A DNA stretch of 47,551 bases from a virus: positions 1-47,551 of the IMG/VR virus record IMGVR_UViG_3300046715_000069. One strand, written 5' to 3'. The notes under the pieces were generated by a model. That model was not told the DNA's origin, did no database searches, and worked only from the letters and a program-made list of their open reading frames with translations. The position numbers and the translations under genes were made by a program. Positions 130-47,551 of the stretch are shown here, piece after piece (position 1 is the stretch's first letter; each line of letters opens with the position of its first letter).

Positions 130-462
130 TCAGGACGAGTCGAGAGCGCGGCGCTTGGCAAGGTCCAGAGCCTCGCGCAGAACGCGGGCGCTGGTCTTGT
201 CGCTCGGCGTGCCGCTGGCCTCCAGGGTCTGGAGGTAGGCGCGGAGTTCCCGCATCACGGTGACCTCCTCGTACTGCTCCGGCTGCACGACCATCGCGAC
301 CCGCTTGCCGCGCTCGGTGAAGGCGCCGGCCTTCCCGCCCCAGCTCACCTCGCGGATGAGCGACGTCAGGGCGGCGCGCGCGTGGGTCATCGGGACCTCG
401 GCAATGCCGTCCTTCGCGATCTCAATGCGCTGGTCAGCAGGCATGAACAGAGTGTAAGCCAT
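130..462 (-). CDS. Solitary Phd/YefM-type antitoxin-like protein
   Basis: This 110-residue protein has the core pattern of Phd/YefM antitoxins: a helix of the type VPMTHARAALTSLIREV, then a short beta segment ending ERGKRVAMVVQPEQYEE. In the family this N-terminal fold dimerises and binds the operator, while the C-terminal tail neutralises a RelE/Doc-type toxin. The start at 462 is chosen because GAAGGA stands 7-8 nt upstream; an in-frame ATG at 486 would add 8 residues but has no such site. It is the only supported minus-strand gene here. No toxin gene follows before the terminator at 75-98, and none precedes it. It may regulate itself or neutralise a host toxin; the family call is fairly secure, the role is inference. 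Confidence 0.75.
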   Translation of the reverse strand: MAYTLFMPADQRIEIAKDGIAEVPMTHARAALTSLIREVSWGGKAGAFTERGKRVAMVVQPEQYEEVTVMRELRAYLQTLEASGTPSDKTSARVLREALDLAKRRALDSS

Positions 463-6655: not shown

Positions 6656-6999
6656 ACAACACGCCTCAGGCCGTTGTCCAGGCCACCGAGTACACCGTCT
6701 CGTGCATCCCCGAAGACAACATCAACAGCTTCTCGTTCGGGCTGACCGTCCGGTACCGCGGCGGGGGCCGGTGGGCCGTCCAGCGCGGCGAGCACGCGTG
6801 CCTCGGTGCTGACGGCACCTGGGCCGACGGGGTCAAGCCTTACGACCGTGGCGACGACTGGCTGGCCGCGCACCGGTTCGACCTCGACACCGCGCTGCGG
6901 TTGGCGAAGGATGCCGCGCCGCACGTGACGGTGAACGGTTACACCGTCGCCGACGTCCTCGCGATGGCCGCCCGACAGGACGCTGAGGGGGTGCGGTGA
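6652..6999 (+). CDS. Hypothetical protein, actinophage early region
   Basis: The GTG at 6652 has GGGAGAA 5-6 nt upstream. The 115-residue product has alternating beta strands at the start (TEYTVSCIPEDNINSFSFGL, then GRWAVQRGEHACLGADGTWA). A C-terminal helix pair follows (LAAHRFDLDTALRLAKDAAP, VADVLAMAARQ). The look is of a small alpha/beta fold, and no enzyme motif is visible. It is coupled to the XF1762-like gene by a TGATG overlap. Function unknown. Confidence 0.65.
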   Translation: MNNTPQAVVQATEYTVSCIPEDNINSFSFGLTVRYRGGGRWAVQRGEHACLGADGTWADGVKPYDRGDDWLAAHRFDLDTALRLAKDAAPHVTVNGYTVADVLAMAARQDAEGVR

Positions 7000-7466
7000 T
7001 GGCCGACACCACGACGAGGCTGCATCTGGTGCCCGTCCGGTCCCGAGAGGCCCGCCGATTCGTCGCGATGTGGCACCGGCACCACCTGCCACCCGTAGGA
7101 CAGATCTTCGCCGTCGGCGTCGCCACCGACGACGGCGTCCTCTGCGGCGTCGCCATAGTCGGCCGGCCCGTCGCCCGACTCCTCGACAACGGCCAGACGC
7201 TGGAGGTCACCCGTACCGCCACCGACGGCACCCGCAACGTCAACTCGATGCTCTACGGGGCCTGCTGGCGGGCGGCATCGGCTCTCGGCTACACGCGACT
7301 GATCACCTACACCCAGGCCGGCGAAACCGGCGCTTCGCTGCGAGCAGCCGGATGGCGCGTCATCGCCGAGCGGCCGGCGCGCCCCGGTTGGGATAGGCCC
7401 TCGCGTCCTCGCCAGTTGCGCGGCACCGAAGAGATCCCCCGCACCCTCTGGGAGGCCGTGTCGTGA
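6999..7466 (+). CDS. XF1762-like phage protein, GNAT-like fold
   Basis: The 155-residue product shows conserved blocks I associate with the XF1762 family of phage proteins: FVAMWHRHHLPPVGQIFAVG, GVAIVGRPVARLLDNG, TLEVTRTATDGTRNVNSMLY, GACWRAASALGYTRLITYT and a C-terminal WDRPSRPR. The central RNVNSMLYGACWRAA helix and the following strand resemble the acetyl-CoA-binding part of GNAT acetyltransferases. No substrate is known to me. Either the GTG at 6996 or the ATG at 6999 could start it; the ATG gives a TGATG overlap and is preferred. The gene overlaps both neighbours. Acetyltransferase activity is inference. Confidence 0.75.
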   Translation: MADTTTRLHLVPVRSREARRFVAMWHRHHLPPVGQIFAVGVATDDGVLCGVAIVGRPVARLLDNGQTLEVTRTATDGTRNVNSMLYGACWRAASALGYTRLITYTQAGETGASLRAAGWRVIAERPARPGWDRPSRPRQLRGTEEIPRTLWEAVS

Positions 7467-10664: not shown

Positions 10665-11084
10665 ATGATGAATCGACATGATCCAAACTGGTTGTGGGAG
10701 TTCCAGGCCGAGGACTTCGTACACGCCCGGCTCCGCGAAGGCCTCGCCGAAGCCGAAGCGTTGCCTCCTGGCCGCGAGCGCGACGCCGCGGTGGACCGCG
10801 TCATCTCCCTCCGCCTCGCCGTCGTCCAGCACTCGCCCTACGTGGACAAGGACGGTCAGAGTTGGGGCCGGTGCATCACCTGTCCCGGCGCCTGCGGCTT
10901 CCCCTGCTCGACGATGCGCTTCTTCACCCGCATGTGGCGGCAGCACCCCGACTACCGAGCCGGATGGAACGAGACGCTCGACGGAGAGACCGGTCCGACG
11001 GACTGGTCGCGCGAGCAACTGCGTCTCGCAGAACTCGGTGGCTACCGCAACGAGTTCCTCGCTGAGCACCCGGACGCGGCATGA
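10665..11084 (+). CDS. First gene of the integrase unit, hypothetical
   Basis: The 139-residue product starts at the first of two adjacent ATGs (10665 or 10668), with no ribosome-binding site but a -10-like TACAAT just upstream. It has an N-terminal helix (WLWEFQAEDFVHARLREGLA), then VDRVISLRLAVVQHSPYVDK and a Cys cluster CITCPGACGFPCSTMRFF. A C-terminal segment follows (WSREQLRLAELGGYRNEFLA). The protein resembles small actinophage proteins adjacent to DUF6221-like genes, but I do not recognise a function. It is coupled by ATGA to the next gene and through it to the integrase. Confidence 0.6.
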   Translation: MMNRHDPNWLWEFQAEDFVHARLREGLAEAEALPPGRERDAAVDRVISLRLAVVQHSPYVDKDGQSWGRCITCPGACGFPCSTMRFFTRMWRQHPDYRAGWNETLDGETGPTDWSREQLRLAELGGYRNEFLAEHPDAA

Positions 11085-11269
11085 CCGAGTCTGTCGCCCC
11101 GCCGTCGGACGTTCCCATGACCCGCGAAGAGCTGGAAGAAACGGTTGCCGCCGTCATCTGCTGCCATACGCGGATGAGCCCCGCCGTCCGGTGGGAGATC
11201 GACCTCCTGATGGGCGCGGTCGACAAGCACATCGCGCTCCGCCTCGCCGAATCGAAGGACCAGCCGTGA
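11081..11269 (+). CDS. Small protein directly upstream of the integrase
   Basis: The 62-residue product begins at an ATGA overlap and ends in a GTGA overlap with the integrase. It is helical (REELEETVAAVICCHTRMSP, RWEIDLLMGAVDKHIALRLA). Its position is that of a possible recombination accessory protein. It lacks the winged-helix signature of an excisionase. Function unknown. Confidence 0.55.
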   Translation: MTESVAPPSDVPMTREELEETVAAVICCHTRMSPAVRWEIDLLMGAVDKHIALRLAESKDQP

Positions 11270-12285
11270 CCGATGCCCTCGTTCCACACCAGCCGGACGC
11301 CGCCCCCGCCGTCTACGACGCTGCGACGCTCGCCGTCCTCGCCGCCATGGAGAAGGCTGCGGACGAGCACATCGACGGCCTGATCCCCAAAAACACCAAG
11401 CGCGGCTACGAGAACGACTGGGACCTCTGGGAAGAGTTCCACGACTGGCTCGCCGACCGCACCGGCCACCGCATGCCGTCGACCGCCGTCACCAAGGGCA
11501 CCCTCGTCGGATTCGTCGTCTGGCTCGACACGATCAAGCTCGCCGCACCCAGCAGCATCGACCGCAGGATCACAGGCGTCACCGTCACCGCCCGCCGTGA
11601 ACACGGCATCGAGGTACCCAAAGAGGCGACGGTCGCCGCCCGGAAAGCCCTCAAGCCGCTCAAGGTCGACGAAGACCGCATCGCACGCGGCCGAGGACAA
11701 GCCAGAGCCGCCACCCCCGAACAGCTCAAGCAGATGGCTGCCGCCGTGCCCGAGGGACTCACCGGCCTACGCGACCGTGCACTTTGGCTCATGGCGTTCT
11801 TCATTGCTGGCCGCTCCGCCGAAGTCGCGGCTCTCCGCGCCGACGGCATCACCCTCCACGGCAAGGGCCTCAACGTGCGGGTGCCCGGCGTCAAAGGCAA
11901 GGAAGCCCGCGAGGTCGTCGTCACCTACAGCGAGAACCCTGACCTGTGCCCCGTCCGTGCGTGGCTCACCTGGAAGACCGCCTCCGGCATCAGTAGCGGC
12001 GCGGCCTTCCGCGCCATCGACCGATGGGGCAACATGCCCAACCGGCACCTCACCGCCGAGACCGTCCGCGAGATCATCGCTGCCAACGCCGAACGAGCCG
12101 GCGTCGCCGTCCGACTCACCGGCCACAGCATGCGCTCCGGGTTCATCACCGCCTCCCGCGCCGCGGGCAAGCGCGAAGAGAAGATCCGCGAGCAGTCCGG
12201 ACACGCCCCGAACAGCCCCGTCTTCTGGCGCTACATCCGCGAAGCCGACAAGTGGATCGACGCCGCATCGGAAGGGATCCTGTGA
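11266..12285 (+). CDS. int: Tyrosine recombinase (integrase)
   Basis: The 339-residue protein has a core-binding domain (about residues 25-130; NTKRGYENDWDLWEEFHDWL) and a catalytic domain (about 150-335). The tyrosine recombinase residues are visible: Arg183 in FIAGRSAEVAAL, Lys210/212 in VPGVKGKEA, His287-x-x-Arg290 in LTGHSMRSGF, His313 in QSGHAPNS and Tyr323 in FWRYIREAD. It therefore looks active. It should catalyse site-specific insertion and excision, probably between attP and a host attB. The GTG start lies in a GTGA overlap. It sits mid-window rather than at an end, unlike a typical integrated prophage. No arm-binding N-terminal domain of lambda type is obvious. Confidence 0.92.
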   Translation: MTDALVPHQPDAAPAVYDAATLAVLAAMEKAADEHIDGLIPKNTKRGYENDWDLWEEFHDWLADRTGHRMPSTAVTKGTLVGFVVWLDTIKLAAPSSIDRRITGVTVTARREHGIEVPKEATVAARKALKPLKVDEDRIARGRGQARAATPEQLKQMAAAVPEGLTGLRDRALWLMAFFIAGRSAEVAALRADGITLHGKGLNVRVPGVKGKEAREVVVTYSENPDLCPVRAWLTWKTASGISSGAAFRAIDRWGNMPNRHLTAETVREIIAANAERAGVAVRLTGHSMRSGFITASRAAGKREEKIREQSGHAPNSPVFWRYIREADKWIDAASEGIL

Positions 12286-20078: not shown

Positions 20079-21551
20079 ATGGGCGCCTTCCTCCTCGCCG
20101 CAGACCGCCTCGAAGCCTCCACCGAACAGGACCGTCGATCGGCTGAGTACGCCCTCGACCCAGCACGATGGGCACGCGACAAGCTCGGCGAACACATGTG
20201 GTCCAAGCAGGTTGCCATCGCCGAGTCCGTCCGCGACAACCGGCTCACCGCCGTCCAGTCCTGCCACGGCACAGGCAAGAGCTGGACCGCGTCCCGGCTG
20301 ACCGCCTGGTGGCTGGACATCCACCCGCCCGGCGAGGCCCGCGTCGTCACCACCGCCCCCACCGGCGACCAGGTCAAGGCCATCCTCTGGTCGGAGATCA
20401 ACGGCGCGTTCGCCAAGGCCCAAGCCCGCGGCAATCCGTTCCTCGGCCGCATCAACGAAACCGACTGGAAGCTCGACAAGCGGCTCCTGGCGTTCGGCCG
20501 CAAGCCGTCGGACTACAACCCGCACGCCTTCCAAGGCATCCACGCCAAGTACGTTCTCGTGCTCCTCGACGAAGCGTGCGGCATCAACAAGCAGTTTTGG
20601 ACTGCCGCGAACTCGATCGCCACCGGCGAGCACTGCCGCATCCTCGCCGTCGGCAACCCCGACGACCCCGGCTCCTACTTCGCGCAGGCCTGCGCCAGTG
20701 GGCGTTGGAACGTCATCCGCATCAGCGCGTTCGACTCGCCGAACTTCACCGACGAGCCGGTCCCCGACGAAGTGCGGCCCATGCTCGTCGGCCAGTCCTA
20801 CGTCGACGACATGCGGGCCGAGTACGGCGAACAGTCGCCCACCTACATCTCTAAGGTCCTCGGCGAGTTCCCGTCGGACTCCGACGACGGTGTTGTCCGC
20901 CTGTCCGCGATCCGCGCCTGCGCTCAGCCCCGCGACACCCCGCACACAGACCTGGACCTCGCCCCCGTTGAACTCGGCGTGGACCTCGGGGCCGGCGGCG
21001 ACGAAACGTGCATCCGCGAACGACGCGGCCCGCAGGTCGGCCGTGAATGGCGGTCCCGGGAAAAGGACCCGATGAAGGTCGTCGGCCTCATCCTGGAAGC
21101 CATCCGCACCACCGGCGCCACCGCCGTGAAAGTCGACTCGATCGGCATCGGATGGGGCATCGTCGGATCGCTTCGGGAAAAGCGCGAACAGGGACTCCAC
21201 CAGGCGGAGATCCTCGGCGTGAACGTGTCCGTCGCGTCCAGTCAACCCAACCGCTTCCCTCGGCTGCGCTCGCAGATCTGGTGGGAGATCGGCCGCAAAC
21301 TCTCCGAAGACGGCGCGTGGGACCTGTCGCAGCTCGGCGAAGACGACCGCGAGCGGCTCATCTCCCAGCTCACGGCGCCCAAGTATTACGCCGACTCAAG
21401 CGGCCGGATCGTCGTGGAGCCCAAGGAAGAGACGAAGAAGCGCATCGGCCGGTCACCGGACAACGCCGACGCCCTCCTGCTGGCCTTCTACGCGGCGCCC
21501 GGCGGCCACGACGAAGCCATGGCGTGGCTCAGCGCCTACCGCAACGCCTGA
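20079..21551 (+). CDS. terL: Terminase large subunit
   Basis: The 490-residue protein has both motor parts. The ATPase has Walker A CHGTGKS (residues 62-68) and Walker B YVLVLLDEA (158-166). The RNase H-like nuclease has VDLGAGGDET with Asp302, VDSIGIGWG with Asp353 and RSPDNADALLLAF with Asp461/Asp464. All catalytic acids are present. It should pump DNA into the prohead through the portal encoded next and cut it at packaging ends. The start follows GAGGTGA by 4-5 nt. Length is normal for the family. No interruption is seen. Confidence 0.93.
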   Translation: MGAFLLAADRLEASTEQDRRSAEYALDPARWARDKLGEHMWSKQVAIAESVRDNRLTAVQSCHGTGKSWTASRLTAWWLDIHPPGEARVVTTAPTGDQVKAILWSEINGAFAKAQARGNPFLGRINETDWKLDKRLLAFGRKPSDYNPHAFQGIHAKYVLVLLDEACGINKQFWTAANSIATGEHCRILAVGNPDDPGSYFAQACASGRWNVIRISAFDSPNFTDEPVPDEVRPMLVGQSYVDDMRAEYGEQSPTYISKVLGEFPSDSDDGVVRLSAIRACAQPRDTPHTDLDLAPVELGVDLGAGGDETCIRERRGPQVGREWRSREKDPMKVVGLILEAIRTTGATAVKVDSIGIGWGIVGSLREKREQGLHQAEILGVNVSVASSQPNRFPRLRSQIWWEIGRKLSEDGAWDLSQLGEDDRERLISQLTAPKYYADSSGRIVVEPKEETKKRIGRSPDNADALLLAFYAAPGGHDEAMAWLSAYRNA

Positions 21552-43464: not shown

Positions 43465-43751
43465 CCGTGGACTCCGTCTACCGCGAGCGCGCCCACCTGG
43501 TAGCGCATCTGGCTGCCGCCTACCCGTCGACGATCGGCTACCACGACCCGACCGAGCCGGACTGGGCTGTCGTCATCGTCAACCTGCCCACCGGCCAGGC
43601 GAGCTGGCACGTCTCCCCGGACGACATGGACCTCTTCGCGCACGTCGCCAGGACGGACGTCAACACCTGGGACGGCCACAGCACCGAAGAGAAGTACCAG
43701 CGCCTCGACAAGCACGCCCGCACGCTTGCCGCAGAGAGGAGCACGCCGTGA
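43461..43751 (+). CDS. 96-residue partner between peptidase and endolysin
   Basis: The product starts in a GTGA overlap and ends in a GTGA overlap. It has YRERAHLVAHLAAAYPSTIG, a beta hairpin (DWAVVIVNLPTGQASWHVSP), DMDLFAHVARTDVNTWDGHS and a C-terminal basic helix. I recall short proteins of this type next to actinophage lysis genes. No enzymatic motif is visible. The tight coupling on both sides suggests it works with the peptidase or endolysin. Confidence 0.65.
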   Translation: MTVDSVYRERAHLVAHLAAAYPSTIGYHDPTEPDWAVVIVNLPTGQASWHVSPDDMDLFAHVARTDVNTWDGHSTEEKYQRLDKHARTLAAERSTP

Positions 43752-44632
43752 CCGTCCTCGGCATAGACGTCGCCTCGTACCAGGGCACGTCGTACAACAC
43801 GACCGGCCTGGGCTTCGTGTTCGTGAAGGCCACCGAGAGCACCAGCTACGTCAATCCGAAGCATGACGCGCAGATTGCCTACGGCCGCACGCACGGCCTG
43901 ATCCCCGGGCACTACCACTTCCAGCGGCCCGGCTCCCCGACGGCGCAGGCCGCGTTCTTCCTGCAGCACGCCCACCCCCAGCCGGGGGATCTGCTGGCCT
44001 GCGACTGGGAAGACGGCGGCGTCTCCGATGACGACAAGGACGCGTTCATCCGGGCCGTCCGTGCAGCCCAACCGCACCTGCGGACCCTGCTGTACTGCAA
44101 CCGCGACTTCTGGCTCAACCGCGACAAGACCGGCTTCTACGGCGACGGGCTGTGGATCGCCGACCCCGAAGCCCCAGTCGGACACCCGCGCGTACAGGCT
44201 CCGTGGACCATGCACCAGTACGGCATCCAGGGCACCGACCGAGACGTCGCGAACTTCCCCAACCTGGCGGCGATGCGGGCCTGGGCGAACTTCTCCAAGC
44301 CCCCGGCCCCCAAGCCGAAGCCCAAGCCCCTCGCCGCCGCGAAGACGGTCCGGCTGCACGTCGCCGTCTGGGCCGCCACCCACTCCGCGGTCGACGAGCG
44401 GAAGTACCCGCAGAACGAACCGGAGATCCTCGCGATCCAGAACGCGCTCGTCGCCAACAAGCACCTCGCCCTTGGCCACTACCTGCCGGGGATCTACGAC
44501 ACCCCAACGAAGAACGCCTACGCCGCAGAGCAGCGCGCCCAGCACTACACCGGCACCGGCGCGGACGGCATCCCCGGCAAAGCCAGCCTCACCCACCTCG
44601 GCAAGCAGCACGGATTCACCGTCGCCGCCTGA
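43748..44632 (+). CDS. GH25 endolysin with C-terminal wall-binding-like domain
   Basis: The 294-residue product has an N-terminal GH25 lysozyme domain (residues 1-185): GIDVASYQG with Asp7, FVFVKATES with Glu29, a CDWEDG motif holding the catalytic Asp-x-Glu pair, and ADPEAPVGHPRVQAPWTMHQ followed by YGIQG. A Pro/Lys linker (PPAPKPKPKPLAA) leads to a C-terminal domain of about 95 residues resembling peptidoglycan-binding repeats (EILAIQNALVANKHLALGHY, YDTPTKNAYAAEQ, DGIPGKASLTHLGKQHGF). It cleaves the MurNAc-GlcNAc bond of peptidoglycan. No signal peptide is present, so a holin is needed. Confidence 0.92.
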   Translation: MTVLGIDVASYQGTSYNTTGLGFVFVKATESTSYVNPKHDAQIAYGRTHGLIPGHYHFQRPGSPTAQAAFFLQHAHPQPGDLLACDWEDGGVSDDDKDAFIRAVRAAQPHLRTLLYCNRDFWLNRDKTGFYGDGLWIADPEAPVGHPRVQAPWTMHQYGIQGTDRDVANFPNLAAMRAWANFSKPPAPKPKPKPLAAAKTVRLHVAVWAATHSAVDERKYPQNEPEILAIQNALVANKHLALGHYLPGIYDTPTKNAYAAEQRAQHYTGTGADGIPGKASLTHLGKQHGFTVAA

Positions 44633-44662: not shown

Positions 44663-45055
44663 ATGCCCACCTTCAAGCTTTTCGGCGTTGAACCGGCGCT
44701 GATCCTTGGCGTCATATCCGCGGCGCTGTCGCTGGTCGTGACCCTCGGCGTCGGCCTGTCCGCCAACCAGGCAGGCGCCTGGTCCGCGGTGATCTCCGGC
44801 GTGTTCGCTGTGATCACCGCGGCCCTGACCCGCCCGATCGCACCCGCCGCATTCACCGGCCTCGTCGCCGTCGTCGCGGACCTCCTCGCCGCCTACCACT
44901 TCAACGTGTCGGCCGGAACGGTCGCTGCCGTCAACGCCCTCGTCGTCGCCGGCCTCACCCTCATCACCCGCGGCCAGGTCACCCCAACCACCGCGGTACG
45001 GCCCGCCGAACGGGCCCTGAAGACCACCGACACCCAGCACCCGACCAGCGCCTGA
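44663..45055 (+). CDS. Holin candidate
   Basis: The 130-residue product has hydrophobic helices at about residues 11-32 (ALILGVISAALSLVVTLGVG), 38-57 (AWSAVISGVFAVITAAL) and 63-77 (AFTGLVAVVADLLAA), plus a weaker one near 88-103. A hydrophilic C-terminal tail follows. The size, topology and position just after the endolysin fit a holin, which would open the membrane for the endolysin. Only a weak ribosome-binding site (GAAACGG) precedes the ATG, consistent with low, timed expression. No holin family signature was identified. Confidence 0.68.
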   Translation: MPTFKLFGVEPALILGVISAALSLVVTLGVGLSANQAGAWSAVISGVFAVITAALTRPIAPAAFTGLVAVVADLLAAYHFNVSAGTVAAVNALVVAGLTLITRGQVTPTTAVRPAERALKTTDTQHPTSA

Positions 45056-45126: not shown

Positions 45127-45435
45127 GTGCCTGATGACGTCTCCGTGGGCGAGACATACCGGCGACTCAAGGACCACGAGACCCGCACCGACCGCATCCA
45201 CGAAGCGATCGAGAGCCGCATCACGAACGTCGCACGCGACTGCGTACCCCTGGCCCTGTACCAGCAGGGCGAGAAAGACCGGGACGACGACATGAAAGCG
45301 ATCTCCGACCGGGTCGCGAAGATCGAAGACCGGCCCGCGATGACGTGGGGCCGCTGGGTGGCCGTCCTGTCCGTAGCCGCCGCATTCCTCGGCCTCGCAG
45401 TGCAGGCATACAGCACCATGAAGGGGGCCAAGTGA
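45127..45435 (+). CDS. Coiled-coil protein with C-terminal membrane helix
   Basis: The GTG at 45127 is preferred over the GTG at 45121 because AGGGGG lies 6 nt before it and directly abuts the other. The 102-residue product has a charged coiled coil (VGETYRRLKDHETRTDRIHE, GEKDRDDDMKAISDRVAKIE) and a C-terminal transmembrane helix (WVAVLSVAAAFLGLAVQA). This layout recalls XhlA-type holin partners. It probably helps the lysis step or anchors at the membrane. It is coupled by GTGA to the collagen-like gene. Confidence 0.62.
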   Translation: MPDDVSVGETYRRLKDHETRTDRIHEAIESRITNVARDCVPLALYQQGEKDRDDDMKAISDRVAKIEDRPAMTWGRWVAVLSVAAAFLGLAVQAYSTMKGAK

Positions 45436-46184
45436 CCAACCCAGATGCTGGAACAGCGCGTCGCCCCCGCCGGGCCACACTCGGCGCGGCGATCGGCTGG
45501 GTGGCAGCGCTCGCCCTCGCTGCATTCATCGCCCTGGTCCTGCACTCCGTGCAAGCCTCCAACAAGCGCCTCGCAGACGGGCAGGACGCGCAAGCAACCG
45601 TCATAGACCGCCTGTCGTCAAGCCTGGACACAACCAGGCAGCAGCTACAGCAGCACGGCGTGACCCCGTCCGCACCGCCCGCGCAGTCCATCGTGAAGGC
45701 CGTCCCCGGCGTACCCGGGGCGGTCGGCGCACCAGGGGTCCAGGGGGAACAAGGCGTCCCCGGACCGGTATCGACGGTGCCCGGACCCTCTGGTCCCCGC
45801 GGGCCGGCCGGACCCGTCTCGACAGTTCCCGGGCCGACCGGGCCAGATGGCGCTCCCGGCGCAGACTCCACCGTCCCCGGGCCGGCCGGACCAGCAGGGC
45901 CACCTGGAGCGGACTCCACCGTCCCCGGACCCAAGGGCGACCAGGGCGATCAGGGCGTGGCTGGCCGCGACGGGGCAGCCGGTCAGCCGCCTGCGGGTTG
46001 GACGTGGACGGACCCGGCGGGGATCTCCTACACGTGCAGCCCGGTCGACGGATTCGACCCGTCCGCGCCCCGCTACACGTGCACCCCGGATGCGGTGACG
46101 CCGCCGACGGAGTCCCCGTCACGCAAGGGCCTCCTCGGCGTGCTCTCCCTCGGATCCCTGGGCGCGTACAGGAGGCTGCAGTGA
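45432..46184 (+). CDS. Membrane-anchored collagen-like protein
   Basis: The 250-residue product begins with a basic stretch and one transmembrane helix (residues 17-38, LGAAIGWVAALALAAFIALV). A short coiled coil follows (DRLSSSLDTTRQQLQQ). Residues 91-185 are collagen-like Gly-X-Y sequence that includes four 16-residue repeats of the type VSTVPGPTGPDGAPGA. A C-terminal domain has two cysteines (GWTWTDPAGISYTCSPVDGF, RYTCTPD) and a weakly hydrophobic end. It would be a membrane-tethered trimeric stalk, probably exposed outside. It starts in a GTGA overlap with a membrane protein in the lysis block. Its role there is unclear: spanin-like, surface display or structural. Confidence 0.75.
   Translation: MTNPDAGTARRPRRATLGAAIGWVAALALAAFIALVLHSVQASNKRLADGQDAQATVIDRLSSSLDTTRQQLQQHGVTPSAPPAQSIVKAVPGVPGAVGAPGVQGEQGVPGPVSTVPGPSGPRGPAGPVSTVPGPTGPDGAPGADSTVPGPAGPAGPPGADSTVPGPKGDQGDQGVAGRDGAAGQPPAGWTWTDPAGISYTCSPVDGFDPSAPRYTCTPDAVTPPTESPSRKGLLGVLSLGSLGAYRRLQ
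45768..45959 (+). repeat. Four 48-bp imperfect tandem repeats (collagen region)
   Basis: The repeats encode VSTVPGPSGPRGPAGP, VSTVPGPTGPDGAPGA, DSTVPGPAGPAGPPGA and DSTVPGPKGDQGDQGV. Copy number is likely to vary by recombination or slippage. Each unit breaks the strict Gly-X-Y phase at STV, giving regular flexible interruptions. Confidence 0.7.
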
Positions 46185-46212: not shown

Positions 46213-46249
46213 CGCCCCGCTGTCCTCCGGGACGGCGGGGCGCTTTGTC
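46213..46249 (+). terminator. Rho-independent terminator after the lysis block
   Basis: CGCCCCGCTGTCC (46213-46225) pairs over 13 bp, with one G-T pair, to GGACGGCGGGGCG (46230-46242) around TCCG. CTTTGTC follows. It separates the phage late operon from the MurG-like gene, which must have its own transcription signals or rely on readthrough. Confidence 0.7.
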
Positions 46250-46324
46250 GTACCCAGCGCCACGCTTCGTCCAATCAACCGTCAGAAACCACAGGAGGTG
46301 TTCCTTGCCAGTAGTCTGCGCCGG

Positions 46325-47500
46325 GTGAACAGTGCACCCCAACCCGCCAACACCTTCCGTCTGATCGTCACCGGCGGAGGGACTGGGGGCCACACCTACC
46401 CCGCGCTCACCGCGATCCGCACCCTTCAGGAGCGGCTGGCGGCCGGGAGCGGCACCCTCGACGTTCTGTGGATCGGCACCCCCGACGGCCTGGAGGCCCG
46501 AGTCGCACCGGCCGAGGGGATCGCATTCGCGACCGTCGCCACGGGCAAGGTTCGCCGATCCAGCAACCCGCTCAAGATGGTGTCCCCGGCCAACGTCCGC
46601 GACATGGCGCGCGTACCGCTCGGCGTCATGCAGGCCCGCAGGATCGTCTCCGAGTTCCAGCCGGACGTCGTGCTCGCGACCGGCGGGTACGTCGCAGTGC
46701 CCGCGGGCTTGGCCGCGCGCATGTGCCATCGCCCGCTGGTGCTGCACGAGCAGACCGTGCGCCTGGGCCTGGCGAACCGCAAGCTCGCCGGCTCGGCAAC
46801 GCGCATCGCGGTCTCCTCGGAGTCGACGGTGGCGCTCCTGCCGGAGTCGGCGCGCAGCATCGCGGTGGTCACCGGCAATCCGGTACGCGCCGAGGTGCTG
46901 ACCGGGCACGCGGACAAGGCCGTCGACGCGCTGGGCCTGAACGGCTTCGACCGGCGGCTGCCGACGGTGTACGTCACCGGTGGCGCGCAGGGCTCGCAGC
47001 AGATCAACGACGTCGTGCGTGGCGCCCTGCCATGGCTGCTGGAGCGCGCGAACGTAATCCACCAGTGCGGGCCGGGCAATATCGGCGCAATGCGGGGCCA
47101 CGCCGCAGCGGTGCCAGCGCACATGGCGGGCCGGTACCACCTGACCGGCTTCGTCGGACCCGAACTGCCCGATGTCCTGGCGTTGGCAGACGTGGTGATC
47201 TCGCGCAGTGGCGCGGGAACGCTCGCGGAGCTGACCGCGCTCGGCAAGCCAGCATTGTTCATTCCGCTGGCCTCCTCGGCGGGGAACGAGCAGGCACACA
47301 ACGCCCGGCACCTTCAGGACGCGGGCGCGGCCGTCGCGCTGATCGGCGAGGTGACCGCCGACCGGCTGCGTGAAGCGGCCGGGCCGCTGCTGAACGACCC
47401 GCAAACACGCGCCGTGATGGCCGGGCGTGCCCGGACGCATGGGAAGCCGGACGCGGCGGACAGGCTCGTCGACGTGATCCTGTCCGCTGCCTCCGGATGA
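46325..47500 (+). CDS. MurG-type glycosyltransferase
   Basis: The product (391 residues from the GTG at 46325; 400 from the GTG at 46298) is a two-domain GT-B enzyme of the MurG family. Visible motifs are the N-terminal G-loop VTGGGTGGHTYPAL, VVLATGGYVAVPAGLAA, the lipid-side segment LVLHEQTVRLGLANRKLA, the second G-loop VYVTGGAQGSQQIN, and the UDP-GlcNAc site DVVISRSGAGTLAELTALGK followed by AGNEQAHNA. MurG transfers GlcNAc to lipid I at the inner membrane. The canonical HEQN is HEQT, and the usual HQ near the sugar is EQ, so this is a paralogue with possibly altered substrate. It follows a terminator and has AGGAGGTG at 46293-46300. It is either phage cargo or host DNA. Confidence 0.85.
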   Translation: MNSAPQPANTFRLIVTGGGTGGHTYPALTAIRTLQERLAAGSGTLDVLWIGTPDGLEARVAPAEGIAFATVATGKVRRSSNPLKMVSPANVRDMARVPLGVMQARRIVSEFQPDVVLATGGYVAVPAGLAARMCHRPLVLHEQTVRLGLANRKLAGSATRIAVSSESTVALLPESARSIAVVTGNPVRAEVLTGHADKAVDALGLNGFDRRLPTVYVTGGAQGSQQINDVVRGALPWLLERANVIHQCGPGNIGAMRGHAAAVPAHMAGRYHLTGFVGPELPDVLALADVVISRSGAGTLAELTALGKPALFIPLASSAGNEQAHNARHLQDAGAAVALIGEVTADRLREAAGPLLNDPQTRAVMAGRARTHGKPDAADRLVDVILSAASG

Positions 47501-47551
47501 TGGGTGCACGGTTCTACGCCTCGCCTCGGCCGGACAGCGCCCGGGTCCAGT
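47497..47551 (+). CDS. Possible start of a gene coupled to the MurG-like gene (partial)
   Basis: An ATG overlaps the stop of the glycosyltransferase gene (ATGA at 47497-47500). The frame MMGARFYASPRPDSARVQ stays open to the window end. If the window is a linear piece of a larger molecule, this is the N-terminus of the next gene in the same operon. If the ends join, the frame closes within a few codons after position 1 and is probably not a gene. Confidence 0.3.
   Translation, partial: MMGARFYASPRPDSARVQ

Follow-up and report, generated by a model that had tools for sequence, protein, structure and literature searches.

Overall, we found that an intact gene near the right end of an actinophage contig is, judged from its sequence, a member of the MglA family, and we consider it probable that the gene represents a lipid II synthase module carried by the phage. 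The window, by which we mean the whole stretch of DNA analyzed, comprises 47,551 nucleotides (positions 1-47,551 of IMGVR_UViG_3300046715_000069). The ability of MglA to replace MurG was already known from a chromosomal gene of Kitasatospora viridifaciens studied by itself (PMC8092295); carriage by phages, a leaderless promoter and an amino-sugar cassette, which that paper does not describe, are added here. Our findings suggest that several unrelated actinophages with the mglA module rework the wall-building chemistry of their bacteria.

Gene start, promoter and family of the window gene

The mglA-type gene occupies positions 46325-47500 on the plus strand and encodes a protein of 391 aa, which was placed in the GT28 lipid II synthase family through Pfam and NCBIfam and through its identity to Kitasatospora genes. 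The N-terminal and C-terminal GT28/MurG-type domains (PF03033 and PF04101) were both detected by Pfam at 1e-29, and the protein contains the glycine loops GGGTGGH and GGAQGS together with the motifs HEQT and NEQAHN, which bears out an earlier note that described a MurG-type transferase with both glycine loops. Against the murG equivalog model TIGR01133, the protein scored 237.7 bits, slightly below the cut-off of 250.25, which leaves it outside housekeeping MurG as defined by that model.

The gene had been thought to extend over 46293-47551. The longest open reading frame starts at GTG 46298; GTG 46325 is most likely the true start, because homology and a conserved promoter both point there. 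The stop lies at 47500, 51 nt before the contig end, and the final nucleotides belong to a convergent gene. A TAnnnT element ahead of an in-frame start was present at 72 of the 95 homologous mglA loci, with a spacing of 7 nt in 62, compared with a mean of 5.1 and a maximum of 12 in shuffled sequences. This conservation indicates a leaderless promoter common to mglA homologues, represented in the window by the putative -10 element TAGTCT (46312-46317, plus strand) 7 nt upstream of GTG 46325. The AGGAGG at 46293-46298 (plus strand), formerly taken as the gene's own ribosome site, was ruled out in that role because it lies too far (26 nt) from GTG 46325 and is not conserved in homologues; only a 7-codon TTG open reading frame follows it. 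Codon usage and GC3 (0.88) did not discriminate between phage and host origin.

To our knowledge, MglA is the only enzyme shown to replace MurG. The K. viridifaciens protein (BOQ63_RS12640) is a distant MurG homologue that takes over as lipid II synthase both in K. viridifaciens and in Streptomyces coelicolor (PMC8092295); S. coelicolor M145 itself has no mglA. Comparison with the K. viridifaciens gene was made through the published mglA primers, which translate to MRLIVTG, DRLVDVL and VLLSVVDR*; matches to the 3′ primer in Kitasatospora fell at five places, all of them at the 3′ ends of members of the window-gene family. Compared directly, three primer-matching Kitasatospora genes, which stand in here for the K. 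viridifaciens protein, were 71-74% identical to the window protein, whereas housekeeping Streptomyces MurG was 34-36% identical. The primers match both ends of these close Kitasatospora homologues (MRLIVTG start region, DRLVDVLLSVVDR end), and the window gene resembles K. viridifaciens mglA, by way of them, in its HEQT and NEQxHN motifs and in its leaderless-type start, with TATGTT ahead of GTG in the Kitasatospora genes.

Housekeeping MurG (SCO2084 type; Escherichia coli MurG 1F0K/1NLM) shares the GT28 family, the glycine loops and the nucleotide-sugar domain with the window protein but differs in overall identity, in its location in the dcw cluster and in carrying HEAN (Streptomyces) or HEQN (E. 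coli) instead of HEQT. In a quick tree that included housekeeping murG, a check proposed in the earlier note, the window gene stood outside the MurG clade, did not group with dcw-cluster MurG and was separated by a branch with a support of 99. We also rejected the idea of an unknown MurG paralogue, since the window gene is closer to MglA than to MurG. HEQT and EQ had been put forward as departures from MurG that might alter specificity. HEQT is indeed present, but it is family-wide (87 of 89 homologues), and EQ is shared with housekeeping Streptomyces MurG, which has GNGEQRLN besides HEAN; EQ was therefore discarded as a sign of new donor specificity, and the argument for altered specificity lost its support. 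Given its family, the window MglA likely has lipid II synthase activity.

A further MurG-like group was observed in Streptomyces genomes (L169, L170 and L171), with 39-41% identity to MglA and HESD or HKSD motifs, and was placed apart from both MurG and MglA in the tree. Matches to the window protein in the phage collection fell below 35% identity; they resembled bacterial MurG from mislabelled entries and were left unused.

Phage context and the end of the contig

The window phage is a Streptomyces-type actinophage. Its plus-strand genes include a large terminase (20079-21551; PHROG 2, 1.1e-35), an endolysin (43748-44632; PHROG 291, 1.8e-30), a holin (44663-45055; PHROG 9752, 1.8e-24) and, as the last phage gene ahead of mglA, a collagen-like tail-fibre-type gene (45345-46184; PHROG 18350/1806, PF01391). 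The distance of 140 nt reported between this last stop at 46184 and mglA holds if GTG 46325 is the start, and the strong terminator reported in between corresponds to an intrinsic-terminator-like hairpin on the plus strand (46213-46242; 13-bp stem, 4-nt loop) that separates the late operon from mglA (z = -4.68; 1 of 200 shuffles folded equally well). Neither end of the window carries an integrase, which leaves the phage/host junction out of direct view; one flank of mglA only is seen, and the contig has probably been truncated. No close copy of the window phage turned up in the phage, plasmid or IMG/VR collections.

A tyrosine recombinase gene was observed in the middle of the phage (11266-12285), 86% identical to 11038-12045 of the related record G411. 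The G411 recombinase has the opposite orientation relative to the endolysin and is accompanied by a separate canonical integrase (62766-64019); the window enzyme may be a second recombinase with a different role. The window also encodes a Phd/YefM-like antitoxin at its left end (130-462, minus strand; below the Pfam cut-off and unaccompanied by a toxin within the window) and a Mom-like DNA modification protein (6999-7466; PHROG 1384, 5e-39).

The last 36-38 nt of the window belong to the convergent gene and not to mglA. On the minus strand (47514-47551), 13 nt from the mglA stop, they encode the C-terminus WTRALSGRGEA*, the 3′ end of a formyltransferase gene that the contig truncates. Three phage records have a formyltransferase immediately behind mglA, and the C-termini of these enzymes are WTRAVSGR*, WTRSLSTGR* and WTRELSRDLPGA*; decayed formyltransferase copies behind chromosomal mglA have similar ends, and the C-terminal pattern gave just 6 unrelated occurrences in 6.5 Mb of strand sequence. 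From the match and the rarity of the pattern, we infer that the contig breaks inside the second gene of a phage-type module. Within the data examined, the full-length formyltransferase version of the cassette occurred in phage records only.

Five IMG/VR records (G010, G011, G012, G487 and G409), whose boundaries are predictions, carry mglA together with a complete cassette, which consists of an acyl- or formyl-transferring enzyme, a DegT aminotransferase, a dTDP-glucose 4,6-dehydratase and a regulator. All five had a portal match, weak in some. By PHROGs, G010 contains terminase, major head, tape measure, holin and integrase genes, and G409 has head-and-packaging genes in common with the window, including a terminase that is 79% identical. 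Moreover, mglA is flanked by phage genes inside related phage records, G010 and G409 among them. Because five phage records have the same module and a phage-type cassette start follows the window gene, the view of the window mglA as phage cargo, one of two alternatives in the earlier note, is well supported. A search of the open-access literature returned no report of phage-borne mglA, which is weak evidence of novelty.

A putative mechanism in lysogens

From its family, MglA would move GlcNAc from UDP-GlcNAc to lipid I and thereby produce lipid II. Its gene lies behind the lysis cassette, is insulated by the terminator and has its own leaderless promoter, an arrangement that would uncouple its expression in the lysogen from the late operon, and MglA would then make lipid II alongside MurG. 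mglA would be the first gene of the module and the truncated formyltransferase the second; by comparison with the other phages, a DegT aminotransferase, a dTDP-glucose 4,6-dehydratase and a divergent NsdA/XRE-type regulator are predicted beyond the contig end. The cassette enzymes, again by family, would yield a dTDP-4-(formyl/acyl)amino-4,6-dideoxyhexose. Effects of the window MglA on lipid-linked wall precursors are plausible because MglA makes lipid II, and conversion of these precursors is the simplest reading because MglA is the sole glycosyltransferase of the module. That the amino sugar and MglA together would change the lysogen's lipid-linked wall precursors, as a form of lysogenic conversion, is a proposal we make tentatively and rate at nearly even chances. 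MglA activity does not depend on a sugar-modified precursor, since MglA without the cassette takes the place of MurG and the resulting peptidoglycan is normal (PMC8092295).

The presence of mglA as cargo of several actinophages gives a testable frame for the reason why so many streptomycetes keep MglA, namely a mobile module that acts on lipid-linked wall precursors and leaves chromosomal solo mglA genes as remnants. Behind this frame stands the contrast between phages, which have a complete amino-sugar cassette, and chromosomes, which tend to lose the cassette and keep mglA. In a broader and more speculative form, which we regard as possible but would not favour, actinophages and plasmids might spread a module that rewrites the wall precursor of the lysogen. 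MglA and a formylated or aminoacylated 4-amino-4,6-dideoxyhexose pathway would then produce altered lipid II (or MurG-independent wall synthesis) and guard against superinfection, foreign lysins or MurG-blocking agents, and the patchy Streptomyces MglA genes would be chromosomal leftovers.

In phages of Salmonella and Shigella, serotype conversion is brought about by gtr clusters. The mglA module would be similar in that a phage-borne glycosyltransferase module would alter the envelope glycan of the lysogen, but it combines a GT28 enzyme of MurG type with dTDP-amino-sugar genes, has no flippase and belongs to a Gram-positive host. The resemblance is thus an analogy of putative working, not membership.

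Chromosomal relatives and competing explanations

Most mglA homologues are chromosomal with no phage genes nearby, which counts against our main reading. Full-length mglA at an identity of at least 65% is patchily distributed: of 296 Streptomyces species genomes, about 46 have it. A few genomes hold two copies, several copies are truncated, and homologues also occur on plasmids. We rejected prophages as the setting of most chromosomal mglA loci, since few viral-like genes lie nearby except in S. griseofuscus, by a check that used a small viral reference set and had modest sensitivity. With neighbourhood genes called by a custom script, the genes upstream of mglA differ nearly everywhere apart from the S. 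griseus group, where mglA and its partners occupy a fixed chromosomal place. Such a locus had been named beforehand as a sign of host DNA. The locus does exist, but the same gene lies inside phages, and we therefore read the distribution as host-phage exchange and not as host-only DNA.

Downstream of mglA and convergent with it, an amino-sugar cassette is often found, comprising a DegT aminotransferase, an ATP-grasp ligase or formyltransferase and a dTDP-glucose 4,6-dehydratase, in some cases with a low-molecular-weight phosphatase, and ending in a divergent NsdA or XRE regulator. The cassette regulator of one variant (L003:13999-15381) falls in the NsdA family (NF053720, 3.5e-112), which is involved in the control of development and antibiotics in Streptomyces. 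Neither MglA nor any of six cassette proteins matched a PADLOC anti-phage defence model. The cassette was complete in 5/5 phage records versus 18 of the 71 chromosomal loci with enough sequence (exploratory Fisher p 0.002); 12 further chromosomal loci had partial cassettes or remnants and 41 had none. Most mglA copies are without the cassette ATP-grasp gene, and all nine ATP-grasp homologues with at least 49% identity in the 296 Streptomyces genomes lie within 3 kb of mglA. On the quick mglA tree, many independent cassette changes were seen, at least 8 of them forced. Because mglA persists without the cassette, it functions independently of the cassette, which agrees with the lipid II synthase activity published for MglA, and the cassette sugar enzymes seem to need mglA.

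The main rival to precursor conversion holds that the cassette product harms MurG-dependent wall synthesis and that MglA is an insensitive substitute protecting its carriers, with bacteria that lost the cassette keeping an orphan mglA against phages or plasmids that bring the full module. This model explains about equally well why mglA outlasts the cassette: close cassette ATP-grasp genes were not seen without mglA, mglA often stands solo or beside a decayed cassette, and the cassette changed independently many times. However, the module contains no transporter or secretion gene, and we know of no toxic activity of such an amino-sugar pathway. Moreover, a use of MglA as lipid II synthase during stress, as has been proposed (PMC8092295), could equally explain why solo mglA persists. 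We consider protection rather unlikely overall. It is more doubtful still that mglA is a redundant MurG acquired by chance and of no benefit to the phage; deletion of mglA left K. viridifaciens visibly unchanged under standard conditions (PMC8092295), but the gene recurs in phages of different types, always with a complete cassette, and its promoter and motifs are conserved. We give least credence to integration of the phage just upstream of a chromosomal mglA, which would make the window gene host DNA at a prophage edge and would suit both the mainly chromosomal occurrence of mglA and the position of the window copy behind a terminator at the contig end, since the partner gene is of the formyltransferase type found full-length in phage records only, the module is internal in five phages, and in relatives of the window phage (G014, G411 and L129) the lysis genes are followed by accessory genes instead of host DNA, with an integrase beyond them in G014 and G411.

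As a separate observation, a conserved minus-strand module encoding uncharacterized proteins, among them one of 695-702 aa without a Pfam match (L205:3300-5408 and L112:14714-16801) lies behind the lysis genes in G411 and adjoins mglA in G409, and similarly placed minus-strand modules lie ahead of mglA in G010 and G011.
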